Below the pieces are notes generated by a model, which had not been told where the DNA came from, ran no database searches, and saw only the letters and a list, made by a program, of their open reading frames with translations. Shown piece after piece: positions 25,079-36,704 of a DNA stretch of 64,000 bases. Numbering within the stretch: position 1 is the first letter of the stretch; each line of letters starts with the position of its first letter. This stretch comes from Escallonia rubra (lineage: Eukaryota; Streptophyta; Magnoliopsida; Escalloniales; Escalloniaceae): assembly GCA_033065855.1 (NCBI GenBank), contig JAVXUO010000130.1, positions 62,001 through 126,000 of the forward strand, given 5' to 3'. The translations under genes and the position numbers were made by a program.

Positions 25079-25119
<41 letters not shown>
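25079..25119. repeat. (TA)n microsatellite abutting the left MULE end
   Basis: About 20 TA units lie directly against the MULE terminus. An equivalent (TA)n (about 36646-36704) abuts the right terminus. The element therefore probably inserted into a TA microsatellite, which hides the target duplication. Confidence 0.9.
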
Positions 25120-25121
<2 letters not shown>

Positions 25122-25405
25122 AGCTGATCCGTTGAGAGCGCTAGCAAAATGAGGTATTTTGTAAGCGCGATCTGGCCCTCCATCCTGAAAGATGGACGTC
25201 CTAGATCGCGTCTTTTTCGAAAATTGTCAGTCGTCCGCGACACTATGTTGCGGACAATATTTTTTACCTTTTTGCCCCTCCTCCCCCGTCCGTTACACTG
25301 TACGGCGGACTACTTTCAAGTCCTGACATGTGTCAGGAAAAAGACGTTTGCTACACAGTGTAACGAACGTCCTCTAGGCTGACACATGTCAGGGCCTGTC
25401 CCGTC
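25120..25405 (+). repeat. Left terminal inverted repeat of the MULE
   Basis: The outer 35 bases match the right repeat at all but two positions. Inside are an imperfect hairpin around GATGGAC (about 25180-25200) and three palindromes with GTCCGC/GCGGAC-type half sites (about 25230, 25288, 25347). Further loose copies follow just inside at about 25460, 25485 and 25530, ahead of the PMD gene, where they could act in its promoter. Confidence 0.9.
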
Positions 25406-25996
25406 AGTCCTTTACGCCCACAGCGGTTATCTTGTCCTCATTTGTCACGTCAACAGTGTCCGGTATATAGTGTGGCGAACGTAATAGTCCGTGGCACTGT
25501 GTAGCTGATGTCCTAAAACTGTCCGCTACACTGTGTAGCGGACGTTTCATATATATTTTAAAAAAAACCCTAACTACGACACTCTTCTCCATTCTTCCTA
25601 CTCACAAATATTCCCAGCAGCGTTGGCAAGCAGATCTGCGCAATTTCTTCTTAAGAGCAGCTTTAATACCCTAATAGATCACGTAAGTTCACAAAATCAA
25701 TCCTTTACATGTTTGCAATCTATAGTTGTGATGAATATTGCGTTTTAGAACAGGTTTTGATTATGCATTGAGCATGTGCTAGCAATGAGAATTTATATAT
25801 GTATGTATTTGTTCATGTGCTAGCGTTTGTAAAATCCGATTCCGTAAATGTATATATATCTATTATACATGTACTCATATATGCTAACATTGCATGTATT
25901 ATGCATGTGCTAGCGTCGTATTTTTGTGAGCGATTATCAAAATCTAAACCGTAAAATCCAAACTGATAAGGTTTTTCCATAATTTCAGTTACAAAA

Positions 25997-27974
25997 ATGG
26001 AATTCAACCCTGGACCAGAAGATCCATCCATGTTATACGACCAAGCCAACCATATCAGTACGCTCATATGGGATGGTGGAGTAAGATACATTATTTATCA
26101 ACTTTCTTATTCTTACGAATGTTATATACCGTTTGTTTTGCTTAAATTATAAATATTAATTCGTAGGAAAGAGAACTTCTCACCACCGTAGAAGTATCTC
26201 ACTAGTTCACAGCATGGAAATTGAACAAGTCCCAGAAAAATATACTGCGTGGAATTGGGTTTGGGATTTTCACGCATGGGCAGATCTTTCAACAGCTTGA
26301 CCGGGCCTTGATTGGTGCTCTTGTTGAGAGGTGGAGAAGCGAAACAAATACTTTTCACTTCCCGCTCGGAGAGATGACAATTACCCTAGAAGATGTAGGG
26401 TTCATCTTAGGGTTACCGGTGACGAGACGGCCGGTAATTACTCCTTCGTCGAAAGCAACGAATAAGAGAACCGCTAGGAACTTTTTCACTTCGATACCCC
26501 AGGATCAATTTAGCAGTGGTGGTATAAATTTGAAGTGGTTGGTAGATACCTACGGGGTTTTGCCAGAAAACTATACGGGCCGTATGCTTGTGCTGTACAC
26601 ACAAGCCTTCCTCTTGTGGGTGATGGGGGCAATTTTATTCCCAACGACGTCGAAGAACACGGTCAGCGTGAAATATTTACCGTTGTTGGGTAACCTGCAT
26701 GAGGTTGGGGATTATTCATGGGGAGCAGCGGTTCTTTCGTATCTGTACCGAGCATTGCACAAGGCAACGAGGCCCGACTCTAAAGCCATATGTGCATGTC
26801 TCTCGCTATTGCATGTATATCATATAAATCATGTCTTCGTTATTGTTTTTTTTAATCGACGATATAAATATAATTTTCCCATGTTCTCAGGTGTGGTCTT
26901 ATGAACACCTTACTCCCGGTGCACCAACGCGAAGGGATGGAACCGATAAAGTGTGGCCTCGGTTGTGTGCTTGGGAGTACAGCCGGAGGGATAGCCACTA
27001 CCAGAGGAGAGTCGATCCCCATCATAACATTACGTACTATCGAGGGGAGTTCGACCGTCTATCTCCGGGCCAAATACGTTGGGCACCGTACATACGTTTG
27101 GCGCGACGGGTGGGAAAGTCGTTCGTCTTCACGCTCTCCGGGTTGCAGCGCAAACCCCTGATCCACTTCGAAGTCGCAGAGTGGCAGCTGCCAGACCGAG
27201 CAATGCGTCATTTTGAGTTGGAACAGGGTTTGCCAGCCGATGCCCTAGATATGAGGGTTGACAGGAACCCACCGGGTGTTGGATGGTTTGGCAAGGCCAA
27301 TGCGCACGAATTGTGCGTGGCCGAAATAGAGCTTTGGAGTTCTTGGCAGGACACACTGGCGGCCATCGTCTCGGAGCCTGACCCCGTTATCAGCATCGAA
27401 CAGTACGATGAGTGGTACTACCGCATCACGCGGAGGAGAGTAGCCCCAGTAAACTTTGAACGCGGGGAGAGGTATGCGCCTAGGGGTCAGATCGATGAGC
27501 GTATGGCATACAATCTCGTAAGTTGCCCAACAAGTCTGCTAGGGAATTGGTGGTCCTTCTGTAGTGGGGATGAGACAGGCTCAAGCGTCGTGGGGCGATT
27601 ACAGCGGCCCCTCCTTCAATTTGTTCCCGGAACCCCAACCCCTCTCTCAGAGTCAAGTCACATAAGACTGGCCTTTCGGAAACTACGATTTCTCCGAGGC
27701 ACTGCCCATTGTCCCGTGGGCGGGACCACTTGATGCCCCCGAAGGGCAATATCCCATGTTTGACCTCCCCGGAGGGCAATATCAGCCGGTCGGGGCCCCC
27801 GAAGGGGATTATCAGCCGGTCGAACCAGGAATTAGAGGACAATATCCCTTGCTCTTGCCCCCCGGCGGAGGGCAAGATTTGCCGGTTGACCCCCTAAAGC
27901 AGGGCAATATCCCCCGGTCGACCCCGAGGGCAATATTCGAAAGGGCATCCAGCCAGGCCCCTAAAGCTGCATAA
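25997..27974 (+). pseudogene. Plant mobile domain (PMD) protein gene of the MULE, damaged
   Basis: Exons are 25997-26080 (MEFNPGPEDPSMLYDQANHI...), 26167-26814 and 26891 onward, with clean GT-AG borders in phase 0. The protein has the PMD layout: an N-terminal PGP.DPS.L..Q..H block, then LIGALVERWRSETNTFHF, then GEMTITLEDVGFILGLPV, and the later YIELW-like block AEIELWSSW. PMD proteins (MAIN/MAIL group and transposon relatives) are nuclear and linked to silencing control. Lesions: an in-frame TAG at 26203-26205 (VSH*FTAW), and a frame change between about 27530 and 27600, after which the Pro/Gly/Gln-rich tail runs in another frame to 27974, itself with a TAA at 27663. The tail holds four to five copies of a PEGQYQPV-like unit. 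Translation could restart at 26221. It probably shares a promoter with the protease gene that follows directly. Confidence 0.85.
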
Positions 27975-28917
27975 ATGTGAGCTAATCCGAGCCCGTTATT
28001 TTAGCGGGCGCCCCCGAGACGAAGCGTTGTATGATGTGGATCACCCAGAGGGCATGAATTACAATGCCTTGTGGACAGAATTGGCCTCGCTGGCGCCGGG
28101 AGCTTGGTTAGACAACTTTGTCATCTCGCACTACGTGCAAATTCTGAGGCAAAGGTGTCGGGAGTAGCCAAACTTTGGTCCGCGGATTTTTATGTTGGAT
28201 GGTTTTTTTTTCATGGCATCCTAGTACAAGAGTGGGAAGACTGGGTCAATTCAAGGAAGGGGAGAGCCCTGGCCCAGTGGAGACTGTCCGCTAACCTACA
28301 AGCATATCTTGCTAGGGATAGTCCAGTGAGCGCAAGTGTTGCCGACGTGTTTCTAATCCCATTTATAGGGAATGCCCATTGGTACTTGGTTTGCTATGAA
28401 CCAGTAGAGAAGACAGTATCAGTCATCGACAGTCTCTACGATGATACCCCCTGATTTATGTGATTGAAATGTACCAAGGCATAGGCCAGTTGGGTGCCAT
28501 GGTAAGATCCTGTTTACTTCTTATTGTAACTTGCATATTGTAAAACTGATTAATCTTATTATGTTTGTTATGTTTAATGTTTAATGCTTATTATGTTTCT
28601 CGCAGAATCTATTTGCTGCCTTGGTCAATGGTAGGCGTCACGAGAGTGTACCGCGCAGGCCGAAGCTCATTTTTCGATTGAAGAGGCGTAGGCCCAAGCA
28701 ATATAATTCCTCGGACTGCGGTGTCTTCGTTTGCATGTACATGGATTACATTTGTCGGTCTGAGAGCCTCAAGAAGACTGTCTGGAGCCGAGAATGCATA
28801 CAAGGCTTTAGGTATAGGATGGCTTGGCAAATTATGAATGGCCGGCCTAGAGCTATTAGGTTTATTGTAAATTCGTGTAATGACGAGGATCCCGTAGGGG
28901 ATGAGTGCCCCCATTGA
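27975..28917 (+). pseudogene. Ulp1/SENP-type cysteine protease (C48) of the MULE, frameshifted
   Basis: The domain starts with SLAPGAWLDNFVISHYVQIL (about 28085-28145), the usual W-L-x-D-x-x-I entry helix of C48 peptidases. His (28377-28379, in NAHWYLVC), Asp (28428-28430, in VIDSLYDD), Gln (28699-28701) and Cys (28717-28719, in SSDCGVFVCMYMDY) complete the catalytic set. One intron runs 28502-28605 (donor ATG|GTAAG, acceptor CGCAG|AAT). Frame changes are needed near 28160 and near 28450, so the copy is broken although the active site is intact. Ulp1 enzymes remove SUMO; MULE-borne versions (for example the Kaonashi type) are known, with an unclear role. It begins with no gap after the PMD tail in an adjacent frame, so the two may once have been one fused gene. 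Confidence 0.85.
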
Positions 28918-29094
28918 CGTTGTAACATTATATTCACTATTTTAATAAACATATATTGAATGCGATTGATTGATTGACCGATATCGTTGTGTTGAATTCA
29001 GTTGAGTGTTTGATTTGTGGTCAGAGATAGCATTTTGGCTCATTGACTGATCTGTGATTTGCTTTGACCTGTGGGAAACAAAGTGTGGGCCAGT

Positions 29095-31045
29095 TTTGGT
29101 TTCTGTCTTTCTGCAGGGCCGTCCGCTATACTATATAGCGGATGTAGAGAGACAAAAAAAAGACAAAAAAAAATTAAGTGTTGGAGATCTGACTTTCTGC
29201 AAGGCCGTCCGCTACATAGTTAAGCAGACGTAGAGAGAAACAAAAAAAACTAAATGTTGTAAATCTGACTTTCTGCAGGGCTGTCCGCTATACTTAGACC
29301 TGACAAACGGTTCGACCCGCGTGGGTACGGGTAATACCCGGTCGGATCCGGGTAAAAATGGGTCGGATAATTTATACCTGGGTTTTTTTGGGTACAATTA
29401 TCTGGGATTTGTATTACCCGCGGGTAATACATTAATTTTTACAAAAAAAAATTAATATTCCTTAAATGTTTTTTTCTCCTTTCTTCCTTATTTTATTGTT
29501 TTATTACACTAACACAAATAGGACTTGGACATTCCCAATTACAATAATCTCTCCAAAGATCTATTACACACAACAGCCATATAAATATAATCAAGATTAG
29601 GCTTCTTGAATAAACAAAATAAAGCCAAAAAAGTTTCAAGATTAGTAGATATGCTCGACGATCAACACAAAATTCCCAATTACAATAATCATTCTCCAAA
29701 GATCACTATAATATCTAGATCAGGCTTCTTGAATAAACAAAATATGACCAAAAAAATCTAGATCTGGTCCACGGTCAACTCAACAACCATAAAATCAAGA
29801 TCCAGCTTCTTTAAACAAAATACAACCAAAAAAAATCGAGATCAGTAGATTTGGTCTACGGTCAACACAACAACCATAAAATCAAGAACATGTGGCGACG
29901 GTCAACAGATCTGGTGGCGACGCAGATCTGGTAGCGACGGTCAACAGATCGACGATGGAGGATAGAGCGACGATCGGCGACGGTCGGTCACTTACTCAAT
30001 CGGTGGCTGCAGTGACAGATTGACGACAAATGGAGTCGCGTTAGATCCGTGAGAATGAAGGGGAAGACAGAGTGGCAGGTGGCCTCGTGGTGGTAGATCT
30101 CGAGTGAGGGGCGGCGGGGAAGAACAGGGCGGTGGCGGCGGGGAAGAATATGTGAGAAGTGAGAAGAAGGGTATGAGAAATGAGAGCTAATGAAGAAAAA
30201 TAAGAGTGAAGGTTAGGGCACAGCACATATTGTTGTTTATATATATTTCAAAAAATGGGTAAACTGGGTAACCCGCCACCCGACCCGGACCGACCCGAAA
30301 ATTACGGTTCGGTTCGGGTACGAGTCTATTTTTAGCGGGTAGTGCAATAGTTACCCATACCCGGTATTTTGGACCGGGTAACGGGTACGAAAAATATTTT
30401 TCCAGGTCTAGCTATACTATATAGCGGACATAGAGATAAACCAAAAAAAAAACTAAGTGTTCGAGATCTGCAGGGCCGTCCGCTACATAGTTAAGCTGCG
30501 TAAAGAGAAACAAAAAAAAAACTAAGTGTTGGAGATCCGACTTTCTACAGGGCCGTCCGCTATACTATATAGCGGACGTAGAGAGAAACCAAAAAAAAAA
30601 AAAAACTAAGTGTTCGAGATCTGCAGGGCCGTCCGCTACATAGTTAAGCGGACGTAGAGAGAAACAAAAAAAAAATTAAGTGTTGGAGATCTGACTTTCT
30701 GTAGGGCCGTCCGCTATACTATATAGCGGACGTAGAGAGAAACAAAAGAAAACTAAGTGTTGGAGATCTGACTTTCTGCAGGGCCGTTCGCTATACTATA
30801 TAGCGGACGTAGAGAAACAAAAAAAAAAAACTAAGTGTTGGAGATCTGACTTTCTGCAAGGATGTCCGCTACATTGTTAAGCGGACGTAGAGAGAAACAA
30901 AAAAAACTAAGTGTTGGACAATTGTCTTTCTGTTGGACCGTCCGCTATATAGTATAGCGGATGTAGAGAGAAACAAAAAAAAAACTAGTGTTGTAGATCT
31001 GTCTTTTTGCGGGACCAAGTTGTACATAGTAAAGCGGACGGGCCT
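29095..31045. repeat. Array of 11 palindromic units, period about 77 bp
   Basis: Each unit reads CTGCAGGGCCGTCCGC, an 11-base centre, GCGGACGTAGAGAGAAAC, an A-run, then AACTAAGTGTTGGAGATCTG. Palindromes start near 29108, 29207, 29283/30411 (split by the hAT), 30476, 30553, 30629, 30707, 30785, 30862, 30939 and 31016. Spacing in the undisturbed part is 76-78 bp. Two centre types, TATACTATATA and TACATAGTTAA, largely alternate through units 1-7, suggesting an ancestral two-unit (about 154-bp) repeat. No coding frame crosses it. Confidence 0.92.
29295..30410. mobile_element. Non-autonomous hAT element nested in the palindrome array
   Basis: Terminal inverted repeats TAGACCTG and CAGGTCTA bound 1116 bp. 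A perfect 8-bp target duplication GCTATACT flanks it (29287-29294 and 30411-30418), the hAT hallmark. Subterminal regions are crowded with GGGTA/TACCC repeats, as expected for hAT transposase binding sites. No transposase frame. It is the same family as 56634-57498, sharing the CAAGATC...CTTCTTGAATAAACAAAAT and GGTCAACACAACAACC interior blocks. Confidence 0.95.
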
Positions 31046-31114
31046 GCAAAGAAAAACTAAGTGTTAAATTACAAATAAGCAGCATCGTTGACACAACGTG
31101 ACATTGGAGTATCT

Positions 31115-31543
31115 TTAGTCATCTTCATCTGACACTGGAGCATCGGAAACAGATCCAACTTTGAAGCTCATGTTCCAGTATACTTGTGCTTCATTGTTGT
31201 TGCCATCTTCATGTGCGTCACGTGCCATACGACGTAAGTTATGCCTACTTTGACGAACTCTCATTCTATTATTTTTCTCACGTATTCGATGCAATGCCCT
31301 TTCAAGCTCCATGTGTGTAATTCGAGGCATGTTGATTGCCTTTTGTCGAGGTATGGGTATATTCATGCGCCGTGAATCAGCTATTAAGACCTCATATTCA
31401 TTCATCCGATAAGACCACTCTGCATGTAATGTATTAACATAGCGTGATGAGTAACGCAAACTTGGACGCAAAGAATAGTGAAATTCATCTTCGCCCGCCC
31501 AGTAACCCATTGCTTCAAAAATATCTCGTGGAGTATATGACAT
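31115..31543 (-). CDS. Small basic protein A of the MULE (142 aa), unknown function
   Basis: This is an intact ORF of 142 aa. I do not recognise a named domain. It is homologous to the divergent ORF at 31917-32351. With a constant +2 offset and no gaps, the two share EW.YR (A: 42-46), a P-x-P motif (63-65), RIRxxNNRM (86-94) and a following Arg-rich stretch (95-108), which looks like a basic helix. The C-terminus is acidic (SDEDD). The minus-strand TATATATAAG at 31620-31611, about 68 bp before the ATG, is a good TATA box. It is undamaged, unlike the large genes of the element, which hints at younger age, relaxed reading-frame risk because of its small size, or selection. A nucleic-acid-binding role is a guess based on its basicity. 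Confidence 0.6.
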   Translation of the reverse strand: MSYTPRDIFEAMGYWAGEDEFHYSLRPSLRYSSRYVNTLHAEWSYRMNEYEVLIADSRRMNIPIPRQKAINMPRITHMELERALHRIREKNNRMRVRQSRHNLRRMARDAHEDGNNNEAQVYWNMSFKVGSVSDAPVSDEDD

Positions 31544-31916
31544 TTCGAGAGTTGTTATGAAACTGAGAGTATATCACTCTATGCCTTTTGCCCTTCATGC
31601 AATGCATGTACTTATATATACTTTGAAACGAGACCACTTTATTATATGTTACAGGTTCAACTTTATGAGATGTGACAAGTCTTTGCAAGAGACCAGAGAC
31701 TTGTCTTGTCACCAAAGACTTGTCTTCTCACTTACATGAGCATGCTATTGTCTCTAACTACCAATTAAGCAGAGTGTCAGTGTCCAGAGACTTGTCTTCT
31801 CACCAGAGATGGGCAGGCTATTGTGTAGCTATCACACCAATATATTGTGTATGTGTGTGTGTGGGCTTATTTATATATGTTAGCCATGCTCATCGCATTA
31901 GATGTACATAAGTTAA
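31544..31916. promoter_or_regulatory. Bidirectional promoter between the two small paralogues, with repeated motif
   Basis: 373 bp separate the two start codons. TATA-like boxes face both ways: minus TATATATAAG (31620-31611) and plus TTTATATATG (31870-31879). A motif AGACTTGTCTTCTCAC occurs three times in direct orientation (31695-31713, 31714-31731, 31786-31804), with a partial inverted copy at 31672-31685 (GTGACAAGTCTTTG). This looks like a shared cis-regulatory cluster. Confidence 0.65.
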
Positions 31917-32347
31917 ATGGCAAGAGTTCTTGGTAGTTCTAGTTATCGGGGACGTGAGACTGTGTGGTTGTTGTGTGAAAGGAACGACGACTACAAAGAA
32001 GTGAAGTACACGGATCCGAGAGAGTATTATGCAGGTTTACGAAGAGAATGGGCATATCGAGTTAAGGAATCAGAAGCACTACACCAAGATCTCACCACGC
32101 TGAGAGCACCTGTGCCGCAACGTCGTTCACTTAGTATGTCGAGGCGTAATGTTAAGCAGTGTAAGAAAGTTGTGTGCCGAATTCGTATGGAGAATAACCG
32201 GATGTTGCTGCGTAGAAAACGATTTTACATGCTTCAACTTGCGGAAGAAATGGCCGAGGCAAGTGGGAGGCACCTCAATTCAAACGAGAGAAACAATATT
32301 TTAACCAATGATCAGTATTTATCTTATGAGTATATGTCAAATGAAGA

Positions 32348-32351
<4 letters not shown>
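31917..32351 (+). CDS. Small basic protein B of the MULE (144 aa), unknown function, paralogue of A
   Basis: This is an intact ORF of 144 aa. Shared positions with protein A are EW.YR (44-48), P-x-P (65-67), RIRxxNNRM (88-96) and a Lys/Arg-rich segment (97-104, MLLRRKRF) running into a predicted helix (YMLQLAEEMAE). Identity is about 30% over the central 75 residues by eye, without gaps. The N-terminus differs from A (it lacks the IFEAMGYWAGE stretch), and the C-terminus is acidic (MSNEE). The stop codon touches a (AT)25 microsatellite. The two genes form a head-to-head duplicated pair, so the duplication was probably an inverted one. No function can be assigned. Confidence 0.6.

Positions 32352-32400
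<49 letters not shown>
32351..32400. repeat. (AT)25 microsatellite
   Basis: A perfect alternating AT run starts at the stop codon of small ORF B. It would sit in that gene's 3' UTR and could form a cruciform. Confidence 0.95.
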
Positions 32401-32402
<2 letters not shown>

Positions 32403-32738
32403 TCCTACTATATGTTAGGATTTCATTCCAACTAGCACTTATCCACATGTCATTCTAATAAGTGAACCCCGTCTTTCGATTTTTCAAGTGTTGGGAATTT
32501 CGGCTGCGCTAGACATTGTAGCGGACGACGATAATTCTGTTTTAATAAATTGGCGCCCGAAGACTTGTTTTAGTGACGGAATCTACAATCTCAATACCGA
32601 TTAACAATAAAAAAACGTACGATTCACAATCAACAATCTCAATATTGACGGAATCTCAAACGGCACAATAAAGAACCTAAAATTCTTCAAAGTCATGAAC
32701 ATCAACATAAATATTTTATTCATAACATAATTTAGGGT

Positions 32739-33203
32739 TCAACATTGGGGGAAAGAAATTTTTTCACAAGTGCTCCGATCAAACACCGTCACTTGAAAAT
32801 TCCACTTCCCCGTGTGTTCAAAAACTACAAAGTTCCCGAGTTGGAGGCCATGCTGCTGCACGAATTCGTTTCAACCCTCTGCGAAAGTAATTTGACCTTG
32901 GAGGCCGCGCTTTATCTTGATTCTTACATGCCATGACCCCTTGCGGCTGGTTAAAGTTGAATCGAAATAAATTGTGGTAACCCAATCGGAAAAGGCTACC
33001 GTTATGTCCTAACATATTCACAATACAAAAAATAGGTTAGTTTTTAACCAAAGATCAAACTTTTAACACAGGAAAACACAAAAGAAAGAGGGATGGCCTA
33101 CAAGTTCTGTATCAAAACCAGGCATCATGACCTTGAAGAAGTGTCTGCCTGCAAGGTGCATGTTGCCTACAAATTCGCTGCTGCTCAACGAATCAGAAGC
33201 CAT
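32739..33203 (-). pseudogene. B3 DNA-binding-domain gene carried by the MULE (two exons, one nonsense codon)
   Basis: Exon 1 is 33203-33102 (34 codons, MASDSLSSSEFVGNMHLAGR then HFFKVMMPGFDTEL). The intron 33101-33009 has GT-AG ends and phase 0. Exon 2 is 33008-32739 (89 residues and stop). Together they form one compact B3 domain of about 123 aa: FFKVMMPGF (strand 1), VAFSDW, WHVRIKI, ITFAEG*NEFVQQHGL, LGNFVVFEHTG and FQVTVFDRSTCEK. These match the REM/VRN1 type B3 pattern F.KV..P.F ... W.V ... F..GW..F...N.L..GD.LVF ... V.IFD..GCEK. The only lesion is an in-frame TGA (32871-32873) exactly where the conserved Trp (TGG) is expected. The B3 fold binds DNA. It sits between the small paralogues and the transposase, and palindromes lie upstream of it. 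Confidence 0.85.
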
Positions 33204-33399
33204 CACGCCGGGAAAGTCGCTGGAGGCGTCGCGACGTTGAGGGGAGGACGGGGCAGTCGCCAGAGGCGGCGTGGCGTCAGGGGGAGGACGGTGGTGTCGC
33301 CGGAGATGTGGGTCGCCATAGATGGGGTATTGGCTGGGTGAGATGTTCTAGACGGAGTGATAAGATGTGAAGCCGATCTGATTAATATATCACAGGATA

Positions 33400-33625
33400 G
33401 AGTCATCCGCTACATTGTATAGCGGACCAAAAGAAACCCAAACGTTTTTTTCTGCAATTTCGTCCACTATATTGTGTGGCGGACACAAAGACCAAAAAAT
33501 TAGGACTCTGCAGAGCCGTCCGCTGCATTGTATAGCGGACATAAAAGAAGGTCAAATTTTTCTAAAGTTCTGGAATTTTAAGACTCTGCAGAGGCGTCCG
33601 CTACAATATGTAGCGGACGGGGCTA
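33400..33625. repeat. Four more GTCCGC-N11-GCGGAC palindromes upstream of the B3 gene
   Basis: Copies lie near 33408, 33464, 33518 and 33595 with centres such as TACATTGTATA and TACAATATGTA. Their spacing (about 55-77 bp) is less regular than in the main array. They lie in the shared region between the B3 start and the transposase 3' end. Confidence 0.9.
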
Positions 33626-33768
33626 ATAAAAAAAATTTAACTTAGATTTGATGGCTCTCATGGGTCCATCAGAAAAAAAATTCCCAGTATTCGGTCAAAA
33701 AATTATTAGAAAAAAATTACAAAAAATTATTGCAAATGTCAAATAGACTTGATGGCTTATACAAAAAA

Positions 33769-35681
33769 TTAAAGGTCCACTGCAGCTTGTTCGTCCTCAT
33801 CTTCGGCGTCATCTTCTTCCCCGTCTTGCAAACCCCCTGGACTTATCCCCAGTGCCTTGTAATGGTTCCGCTTGTCGTGGTCGGTCATTTTGTTGCACAA
33901 TGCACACCTTCTCAGCTTTTTAGGTTGAATTGCCGTTTCAATAGAGCTTTTCATCACCGTAGATCTCTTGCAGCCTTTCATTTGCGATATAATTGGATCC
34001 AAAGGCCGGATATCATTGTCGTCTTCCTCCCCCGGCTCGTCATCTTCTGATCCCGTTGTAGGCTCGGTGTCAACCACATTGGTGACTGAAGCTGCTTCCA
34101 ACTGGTCGAGGATGAGCTCTTGCTGCTGAGCTACCTTGAGGAGATGTTTATATCCGACCATTGTAGCAGCACCCTTTACGGACAAACAGGTGAACATCGT
34201 CACCAGATGATTATACCGCAACGTCTCTGATTCTTCAAAGTCAGTATACGGGTGCTCCGGAAAGGCAATGGTACCGTGCAACCTGTTTGCACCTTTCGTC
34301 CACCGCGGCAAGACGTATTTATCGGGGATTGTCCTGATACGAAACTCTTCAAATTGGTAGCTGTACCCACGTAACTATCGATCGTGGCATTCATAGATTC
34401 ACTCTTGCTCGTCGTTTTCATGCCCGCAGAAAAATGCCTCCTCGTGTAAACGCCAAGCCATTGCTCTTTGAGCTCGTACAAGTGCTGGAGCCACTCGTTG
34501 TCTTGCAATGAGTAATCCTCAACAAGCTTTTCCCACCTCTCCTCGAATTCCTCAATCGTTAACGACTTGTTAACGCAACTGTCAAAATCCTGTTTAAAGT
34601 GTGGAAACTTTGCATACACGTGATGCAAACGTTCAGGGTATTTGTTGCTTATGTGCCAAGTGCACAAGTTGTGTCGAGTATCTGGGAAGACGGTGGCAAT
34701 AGCCTTCTTCATTGCCAAATCTTGATCGGTGATGATAACTTTCGGTGCTTTGTTGTTCATGGCTTCCAACCACGCCCTAAACAACCATTCAAAAGAACTC
34801 TCGCTCTCGTCCCTTAACAAGGCGAACCCGAATATGATGGAGTGATAATGATGATTGACCCCCCATGAAAGGGGCGAACGGCATCGAGTACTTGTTGGTA
34901 CGGTATGTGGTGTCGAAAGTCATGACATCCCCAAAATGCTTATAAGCAAGCCTCAAATGACCGTTGACCCAAAATATTGTGCTAACTCGATGCTCGTCGT
35001 CAAGTTTATAATCGAAGGTAAACTGCGGGTCCTCCATCTACATCCGTTTCAATAGGCTCATTGTGGCTTGAGCATTATTGAGGTCATACGCGGCTCGTCT
35101 ATAGGTTCGGACCGCGTTACGAACGTCTGTCGTGTTAAAGTTTAAATTTTGAATTCTCCCAGCCTGTTCAGCAAGAACATTAATCATGTCGGTAGGTCCT
35201 AGTCGCGCATCGCTCATTGTGTGAATGAGGCTCCTCGCGACCTTACCCATCTTCTTGTGTTGATGCATCTGACTCACCTTAAAGGGGATACTAACAGGTG
35301 ATTGTGTGCCAGTTCCAGGCCGATAATAAGCCAATGATCTTGCTTGGGTTTATAGCTTACGAACATCTTGACCTGGCAATTCGTGCGCGCAAAGCAGTCC
35401 CGTTTTCTACGCGAATATCTTATTTCGTCATCACTGTCATCGTTGCCTACGCGTGTCTCATTTTGCACTGAATTTCTGCCCCTATGACACTCGTATAAGC
35501 GAGAGCATATCTTTTTCGTTACGTTGCTTGTTCTTGTAGTCTTTATTCTAATGCCAAAACCAACCCTCAATGAGTACGCTCGGAAACATTCTCCAGCTTC
35601 TTCCAATATTCGAAAGGTTCGTCCTAGATATGGATCACTAGCATCTACGGGGGTGTTGGAGCTCGACACGAAATCAGACAT
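33769..35681 (-). pseudogene. FAR1-type MULE transposase, damaged
   Basis: A likely start is the Met of MSDFVSSSNTP (35681). The FAR1 DNA-binding region is at about 35600-35290 (GRTFRILEEAGECFRAYSLR, CFARTNCQVKMFVS, HNHLLVSP). The MULE catalytic region is at about 35030-34370: DTTYRTNKYSMPFAPFMG (first Asp), VIITDQDLAMKKAI (second Asp), NLCTWH, and KSESMN (probable catalytic Glu). Lesions: a frame change near 35290; TAG at 35038-35040 between KRM and MEDPQF; one extra G in a G run near 34860; and at about 34352 a junction joining YVGTATNLK to EFRIRTIPDKYVLPRW, which omits the stretch that should hold the SWIM zinc finger (about 100 aa). The tail is acidic with CALCNKMTDHDKRNHY, a Cys/His knuckle-like motif. 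The transposase would act at the terminal repeats. It is dead in this copy. Confidence 0.9.
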
Positions 35682-36357
35682 TGTGAAACAAGACCTATGT
35701 AGAAATAGACTACGCTTAATAATCAAATGACATTTTCAACTGAAAATATTACCTAAAAATTATCTTGGCGAATAGACCAATTTAGGATTGACAAATAAAC
35801 CATATGCTTATAATCTCAAAAGTCTCCCATTTTGCTAATTATAGATTTATTGAACATAACAAATTAAAATTACTAAGATAAATAGACAAATTCATCATGC
35901 CAAAATACAACAAACGTATCTCAAAAAATTCGAATTTAAATAGGTTACATGTGTCGAAGTTAGCGAACCTCAAAAAAATTAAAATTAACTACAATAAATT
36001 TGTTTAAAGTTAACAAATTAATTTTTAGAACATCACAAATTGATGAATAGAGTGACAAATTTCTAGAACATCACCAAAAAATCTATACTTTTTTGTCCAA
36101 AAAAATAAATTATATTTTAGCACAAGCTTACCTTGCTTGAGTGAAGCTTGAAGCAAGTGTTACTCGATGCTTGAGGGGAGCCGAAAAATGGAAGCAAGTG
36201 AAACTGAAGGAGAAGAAAATTTTGCCGAAAGAGCTGAGAATTAGGAAACTTTTGGATATAGGGGCAATAATGTCCGTGATACTATATAGCGGACATTATA
36301 GCCGACACTCTGACACGGGCAGAAATAAAGAGTTGACGGGAGATTTTCTTGGTGGGC
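35682..36357. other. 5' flank of the transposase gene, AT-rich
   Basis: Very AT-rich sequence up to the right terminal repeat. One palindrome copy lies near 36270 (GTCCGTGATACTATATAGCG then GAC). No gene is seen. Confidence 0.5.
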
Positions 36358-36643
36358 GACGGGACAGGCCCTGACATGTGTTAGCCTAGAGGACGTCCGT
36401 TACACTGTGTAACGGACGTCTTTTTCTTAACACATGTCAGGACTTAAAAGTAGTCCGCCGTATAGTGTAGCGGACAGGGGAGGAGGGGCAAAAAGGTAAA
36501 AAAAGACTGTCCGCGACATAGTGTCGCGGACAACTGACAGTTTTCGAAAAAGACGCGATCTGGGCCGTCCATCTTTCAAGATGGACGGCCAGATCGCGCT
36601 TGCAAAATACCCCATTTTGCTAGCGCTCTCAACGGATCAGCTC

Positions 36644-36645
<2 letters not shown>
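36358..36645 (-). repeat. Right terminal inverted repeat of the MULE
   Basis: This is the inverse of 25120-25405. It holds three well-preserved palindromes (about 36397, 36452, 36510) and a terminal hairpin CCGTCCATCTTTCAAGATGG (36567-36586). Palindrome copies are cleaner here than on the left. Confidence 0.9.

Positions 36646-36704
<59 letters not shown>
36646..36704. repeat. (TA)n microsatellite abutting the right MULE end
   Basis: About 29 alternating TA units. It is the partner of 25079-25119 and the presumed split insertion target. Confidence 0.9.

Follow-up and report, generated by a model that had tools for sequence, protein, structure and literature searches.

A B3-domain gene and a palindromic site family in a TA-inserting Mutator-like element of Escallonia rubra, with related B3 genes in CACTA elements

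VANC and TnpA are transposon proteins with reported sequence-specific anti-silencing activity. In the available portions of the sources, VANC attaches to arrays of its motif and clears silencing marks (PMC5735166, PMC10398659), TnpA activates Spm together with demethylation (PMC10398659), and MURA brings about hypomethylation of terminal inverted repeats (TIRs). Mutator-like elements (MULEs) that target TA, ULP1 or PMD genes in MULEs, and anti-silencing through motif arrays are each already known separately. Here, we describe a MULE at positions 25120-36645 of a 64,000-nucleotide stretch of Escallonia rubra DNA (contig JAVXUO010000130.1, positions 62,001 to 126,000; "the window" below means this whole stretch), and its relatives in the same genome (566 Mb, 3222 contigs). 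It belongs to a family of 10-12 kb elements, inserted mainly into (TA)n, with PMD and Ulp1 genes in one arm, B3 and FAR1/MULE transposase genes in the other, and a divergent small-gene pair as an optional cassette between the two arms. The family carries palindromes that we read, with a probability of about 0.35, as putative sites of an element-encoded DNA binder, probably the B3 protein, which would keep copies expressed.

The window element lies within a (TA)n tract (left insertion border 25079-25119, counterpart 36646-36704), whose repeats leave the target duplication not delimitable there, and ends in TIRs of ~286 bp (left, 25120-25405, plus strand; right, 36358-36644, minus strand). The right TIR matches the left with 92% identity over 286 bp, the inverted arms aligning as 25120-25287/36477-36644 (88%) and 25260-25405/36358-36503 (92%). 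On the plus strand follow the PMD gene (26206-27420; Pfam PMD 162.2 and 60.9 bits) and the Ulp1-type (C48) protease gene (28035-28914), which has homologues in relatives, lies on the strand opposite to the transposase, and matches Peptidase_C48 (PF02902) with 30.3 bits (cut-off 20.7) in 28585-28914 and with 12.0 bits, below the cut-off, in 28035-28451. The small genes SMm (31115-31543, minus strand, 142 aa; also in relatives) and SMp (31917-32351, plus strand, 144 aa) are divergent paralogues with 30% identity, oriented outward from start codons 373 bp apart. The B3 gene, on the minus strand, consists of exon 1 (33102-33203) and exon 2 (32739-33008, with a TGA stop inside in the window copy) around a predicted intron (33009-33101) whose splice sites were set by sequence comparison; its spliced frame scores 32.3 bits for Pfam B3 against a cut-off of 30.1. 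The FAR1 + MULE transposase gene (33772-35735, minus strand) gives 52 bits for FAR1 and 82.1 bits for MULE (PF10551, cut-off 27.6). An initial annotation, made from the letters of the window, had proposed a MULE unit with long inverted repeats, a FAR1-type transposase, PMD, Ulp1, B3 and a small pair, and TIR alignment and Pfam confirm this composition.

Searching the plant's own genome with the 286-bp TIR, as that annotation had suggested, gave 78 matches (40 of 2460 candidates scored), among which eight TIR pairs with 7.6-12 kb spacing were listed, and brought to light family members with a recurring gene set. We took 26 MULE units (window included) from this genome and scored their gene content by tblastn, counting a locus as transposase-bearing when at least a third of the transposase was present (n=17). 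B3 was present in 15 of these 17, all except C783 and L024. Both small genes were found in 11 of 16 judgeable loci (L035 was left out of this count); L024 holds SMp with an SMm fragment, and SMp was absent from C783, L009, L033 and L040, with neither small gene present in L033 and L040. All six genes occur together in eight loci, namely the window element, C163, C1, C173, L023, L025, L027 and C825b. Capture of B3 and the small genes in the window copy only is therefore rejected, as these genes recur in other loci, and copies devoid of them are a minority, with C783 the only one of the 17 that lacks B3, SMm and SMp alike. Loci with little or no transposase (L010, L017, L020, L021, L022, L026 and L028) are deletion derivatives or stretches cut at the fetched ends.

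The set is not one fixed unit. The small pair has the window orientation in eight type-I loci (the window element, C163, C1, C173, L023, L025, L026 and L027) and is inverted relative to it in C825b (L029 plus L030), C1354 (L031 plus L032), L038 and L039, where the B3 genes are of types II or III; in C825b the pair sits between site arrays. Synonymous divergence (dS) between C825b and L033 is 0 for B3 (111 codons), 0.116 for the transposase, 0.318 for PMD and 0.608 for Ulp1, a contrast that argues for different histories of the left and right arms, with the B3-transposase difference weak by itself since about three changes would be expected. The MULE behaves as a carrier built of modules, in which two small genes form a cassette that is optional and can be inverted. 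The earlier claim of a MULE class with a regulatory toolkit holds as to recurrence, but the gene set is not constant, given the loci without SMp (4 of 16), the SMm fragment in a fifth and the four inversions. PMD and Ulp1 may be one gene rather than two, which would make the six genes five, and B3, transposase and PMD are damaged in the window copy.

The MULE site, GTCCG-N13-CGGAC (23 bp), occurs 13 times in exact form within the element and not once elsewhere in the window, so the notion of a palindromic site family of the element's own stands; none of the 13 falls within the coding stretches as delimited. Exact sites lie in the left TIR (25233, 25288) and the right TIR (36395, 36453, 36509), and palindromic sites follow on the inner side of each (25521-25543 and 36272-36294). 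Others lie in a site-bearing tandem array with a ~77-bp unit between the protease gene and the small pair (29102-31030, interrupted by a hAT-like element; exact at 30555, 30631, 30709 and 30864), and upstream of B3 (33404-33618; exact at 33518 and 33596, others degenerate). Across the window element and 31 further MULE loci (247 kb in all), we counted 272 exact sites, which fall into 104 variants; every one of the 26 MULE stretches has exact sites (2-25 each), the TIRs usually with several, and a site, often degenerate, stands upstream of B3 in eight aligned loci. Between subfamilies, the inner 13 bp, which the search pattern left free, are 78% identical in array units vs 62% for the flanks. 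These regularities are consistent with recognition by a protein of the family. Within the ~77-bp units, CTAAGTGTTGG and TTTCTGC also look conserved and are possible further candidate binding sites.

The palindromes are symmetric as a consensus, and their position pairs show no clear co-variation beyond shuffles, the marginal pairs 6-18 and 7-17 being equalled by 91 and 183 of 2000 shuffles, respectively. Since compensatory pairing is thus not clear, we rejected a hairpin or RNA structure as their cause, and a symmetric consensus without clear compensatory change is what a dimer site would show. Genome-wide, the pattern GTCCGCTAYANWRTRTAGCGGAC occurs ~9,700 times (9721 forward and 9737 reverse, with most places shared; reversed control 0), a number that we do not take as proof of selection because copy number alone suffices for it.

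B3 is not confined to the MULE, as a related B3 gene is present in all four CACTA loci examined (L037, L041, L042 and L043). Two of these elements are delimited, L037 (1362-5331, 3-bp duplication TTA) and L041 (5636-9354, 3-bp duplication CCT), both with termini CACTACAAG/CTTGTAGTG; L042 and L043 repeat their right-end layout of B3, palindromes and terminus, with only the B3-side terminus inside the stretches. In CACTA elements with B3, the palindromes adjoin that gene near one end. They differ from those of the MULE: L037 pairs its B3 match with other palindromes and no MULE site, and exact MULE sites were absent from all four CACTA-B3 stretches. The CACTA palindrome, AGCGACGG-N(1-9)-CCGTCGCT, occurs 9,026 times genome-wide (reversed control 0), and AGCGACGG-type palindromes lie ~4-6 kb from Tnp2 matches on C3, C6, C9, C11 and C12. 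The L037 copy of B3 scores 45.1 bits for Pfam B3 (cut-off 30.1); its exon matched, in the best 150 of 1401 candidates scored, places 80-90% identical besides L037 itself, and by hand count ~131 of the 150 best-scoring places for CACTA-type B3 are stop-free. The four CACTA stretches gave no match to PMD or Ulp1, and the 3.7-kb L041 element holds no open reading frame of at least 100 aa. The left end of a CACTA element was not seen in the L044 stretch. Several dozen Tnp2 matches have equal scores (C3, C6, C9, C12 and others, mostly a 761-aa frame; C11 nearly the same score), suggesting a recent CACTA burst.

The alignable region of the MULE and CACTA B3 genes begins at the start codon, includes the intron and extends over ~260 bp of 3' flank; no similarity was seen between them upstream of the start codon. 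Directly after B3, 14 of 17 B3-bearing MULE loci hold the half-palindrome TTCCGTCGCTAAAA with at most two changes, exact in five (L009, L023, L025, L038 and L039) and not found in C825b, C1354 and L033; shuffled MULE loci gave 1.7 matches per replicate overall, and elsewhere the motif occurs four times in L017 outside the element and once, unexplained, in L022. Because the intron and 3' flank are shared and a CACTA half-palindrome follows the MULE B3, comparison of these sequences indicates that B3 probably passed from a CACTA element to the MULE. Phylogenetically, the B3 copies of the four CACTA loci form one group (100/100) beside L040 and L035 (supports 96-99); the tree is midpoint-rooted, a rooting blind to the direction of transfer. 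Open-licence literature yielded no MULE and no CACTA element with a B3 gene, nor paired small genes or a B3 common to two DNA transposon superfamilies, and the available parts of the gene-capture review PMC13317346 do not mention a B3 domain. The sharing of B3 points to regulatory-gene transfer between transposon superfamilies.

Between family 1 and C825b, the ratio of nonsynonymous to synonymous divergence (dN/dS) is 0.45 for the transposase, 0.49 for PMD, 0.69 for Ulp1, 0.45 for SMm, 0.38 for SMp and 0.75 for B3; between subfamilies in general the small genes range over 0.38-0.60, similar to the transposase, the Ulp1 gene evolves fast, and conservation is stronger in PMD than in B3. In 14 of 15 group pairs, dN of B3 is larger than the distance measured for the B3 intron (ratio 1.5-4.5; II-III 0.92), with p<0.05 in nine of 15 non-independent pairs; since the synonymous distance of B3 is likewise larger than that of the intron, gene conversion or an exchange of segments may play a part. 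Within B3, the first strand HFFKVMMPGF is conserved (nonsynonymous proportion pN 0.04, synonymous proportion pS 0.48), and variation is concentrated in SDW-STL (pN 0.39, pS 0.25), the C-arm region (pN 0.34, pS 0.25) and the TGKWN loop (pN 0.43, pS 0.37). The C-arm region aligns, weakly (E 0.12), with the FWSNNKSR stretch in the DNA-facing C-arm of LEC2; in the available parts of PMC9391945 the C-arm contributes to B3 specificity. Hand counts among best-scoring places found open frames for B3 in ~87 of 150 scored places (58-97% identity, at least one a CACTA copy) and for SMp in ~115 of 150.

In the mechanism that we favor, the B3 protein would bind the palindromes as a dimer. At the TIRs, the intergenic arrays and its own upstream region it would render family copies transcribable despite silencing, and would also regulate its own gene, an action modelled on that of VANC for VANDALs or TnpA for Spm; at the same copies, chromatin or SUMO may be targets of the PMD and Ulp1 proteins. 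Several findings weigh against a B3 reader. The MULE site core is identical with B3 types I, II, III and L040 despite their differing arms, so specificity would have to come from contacts outside the arms, or the reader is another protein (FAR1 transposase, PMD-Ulp1 or the small proteins). Sites persist in C783 and L024 although B3 is missing there, which shows only the cis nature of the sites, and palindromes of the CACTA type also occur close to Tnp2 genes without a demonstrated B3. A gap between shared and singleton changes was significant for the transposase (pN/pS 0.30 vs 0.57, p=0.002) and not for the other genes (0.41-0.49 vs 0.50-0.77), and stops common to at least two copies number seven in PMD, two in Ulp1, one in SMm, three in SMp, three in B3 and none in the transposase. 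Such shared stops speak against constraint or mark related dead copies.

On the first of three competing accounts, the palindromes are subterminal binding sites of the FAR1/MULE transposase, the inner arrays grew as minisatellites and the other genes are tolerated passengers. This somewhat unlikely account fits the multi-site TIRs, the 1.4-1.7 kb gene-less L034 and L036, which retain TIRs and sites, and the transposase as the gene with the clearest constraint and no shared stop; it sits poorly with sites well away from the termini, within intergenic arrays and at the B3 promoter, with B3 genes of conserved fold core in 15 of 17 transposase-bearing loci, and with the similar arrangement of B3 and palindromes in CACTA elements, whose transposase is of an unrelated type. 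Less probable, yet a serious contender, is a PMD-Ulp1 product as site reader and counter-silencer, a counterpart of VANC or KIU, with another role for B3. Available passages of PMC13317346 do describe Ulp1-domain VANC proteins (KIU) in some VANDALs that recognise and hypomethylate non-coding motifs of their own kind, for which reason we weighted this account up and the B3, transposase and two-superfamily readings down. The PMD part also matches DUF7745 (6e-6) and weakly DUF1985 (0.0033), which is a domain annotated in VANC; Ulp1 changes rapidly from one subfamily to another; and the authors of PMC5418596 speculated on captured PMD as an anti-silencer. However, the DUF1985 score of 17.9 bits is far below its cut-off of 35.1, the literature passages on PMD that were available report no DNA binding by it, PMD is better conserved than B3, and neither gene was detected in the four CACTA stretches, which have their own palindromes. 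Improbable in our judgment is pure capture, in which B3 and the small genes were picked up and multiplied as hitch-hikers that do nothing for the element. It would explain the many copies with stops, some of them common to copies, and shared-change ratios not significantly below singletons except in the transposase, but open B3, SMp and CACTA-type B3 frames persist among best-scoring places, small-gene dN/dS resembles that of the transposase, and the B3 core strand is strongly constrained.

Beyond the reading of B3 as the candidate binder of the MULE palindromes, it is conceivable, if doubtful, that B3 forms an address system in two unrelated DNA transposon superfamilies of this genome, each with its own B3 protein and palindrome. 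The B3 gene would have moved from CACTA elements into the MULE, and its DNA-contact arms would later have diversified under selection for marking, de-silencing or mobilising the right family alone. The idea that B3 type simply matches MULE site sequence was considered and not upheld. As a candidate reader, B3 comes from a large class of plant transcription factors for which DNA-bound structures are known, and it is common to the two superfamilies; given this class and the differing palindromes, reader-address co-evolution is directly testable in vitro.

The window copy itself is probably not autonomous because of the B3 stop, the deletions in PMD and transposase, and a hAT-like insertion. Relative to four aligned relatives, the PMD gene has lost ~287 bp near its 3' end and the transposase gene ~380 bp, including a Cys/His stretch that we take to be SWIM-like. 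Intron loss was rejected as the origin of these two gaps: the missing stretches, except for a likely intron within the PMD gap, are coding in relatives, and we therefore call them deletions. The nested 1.1-kb hAT-like insertion (29295-30410; ends TAGACCTG...CAGGTCTA, 8-bp target site duplication GCTATACT) is later than the MULE and struck exactly inside one palindromic site.

As to the small genes, neither SMm nor SMp matches any Pfam family, and searches of protein collections that apparently hold few plant proteins returned no homologue of SMm or B3. Their predicted folds are poor (mean predicted local distance difference test scores of 62 and 57), and the models, of low overall confidence, describe mainly helical proteins with one better-supported long helix. 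In the best 150 of 1348 candidate SMp places scored (90-100% identical), B3 was listed within 3 kb in 53, and in 50 of these the two genes lie on opposite strands, which is the window arrangement; this count compared the best 150 places of each list. About 26 SMp places share an identical score (278.0 bits) with no stop, e.g., C825:816284 and C1354:353642, which suggests a recent burst of the second subfamily. L020 and L021, like numbered neighbours such as C1390/C1391, are near-identical; contigs of this type suggest uncollapsed haplotypes in the assembly, which would inflate copy counts and leave copies not all independent.

Outer TIR ends lie next to TA repeats (at least seven TA in 20 bp) in 42 of 49 cases, vs 0.76% of random 20-mers from the same loci. 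An exception to TA insertion is L033, with the 9-bp repeat ATTAAACAA on both sides, one base off each TIR match, a length that falls within the 8-11 bp of MULE target duplications. The gene-less L034 and L036 elements, which lack all family genes and keep related TIRs and sites, lie in stretches L034:1526-4754 and L036:1455-2881, where small elements of this kind are found, two of them adjoining within one TA tract.

Compared with known systems, and as far as the cited sources were available, the element resembles VANDALs in being a MULE whose transposase is accompanied by other genes, Ulp1 among them in some, with family-specific short, non-coding motifs in tandem arrays and a fast-evolving accessory gene. 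However, VANC motifs have 8-9 bp and one orientation (YAGTATTAY, AGTTGTCC) whereas the palindromes here have 23 bp; VANDAL TIRs are short, degenerate and 46-174 bp long (PMC6446971), in contrast to 286 bp at 92% identity; VANC is marked by DUF1985/DUF287, not B3; and anti-silencing has been shown for VANC, while our case is made from sequence. KAONASHI/CUMULE-type MULEs (PMC2528002) have ULP1, and MULEs with antisense PMD (PMC6446971) have PMD, on the strand opposite the transposase, as here, but the parts available describe no B3, small pair or palindromic array in either, and KI-MULEs are described as non-TIR (PMC2528002), unlike the TIR-bearing element here. MuTAnT (PMC4486113) and SaTar/Micron (PMC5907723) share (TA)n insertion, TIRs and clustering in one TA tract with our family, and the 4.9-kb AutoMuTAnT has one open reading frame, with no accessory toolkit in the description available (PMC4486113). 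In Aegilops tauschii, the B3 domains belong to Gypsy-type consensuses of one grass, not to MULE or CACTA elements, and no site family is described in what was available of that source; these long terminal repeat retrotransposons (PMC9289625) nevertheless resemble our elements as transposable elements that carry a B3 domain. Finally, the CACTA relatives resemble En/Spm with its TnpA in having palindromic repeats near a terminus beside a small DNA-binding-domain gene; in them this gene is a B3 gene, a putative counterpart of TnpA.

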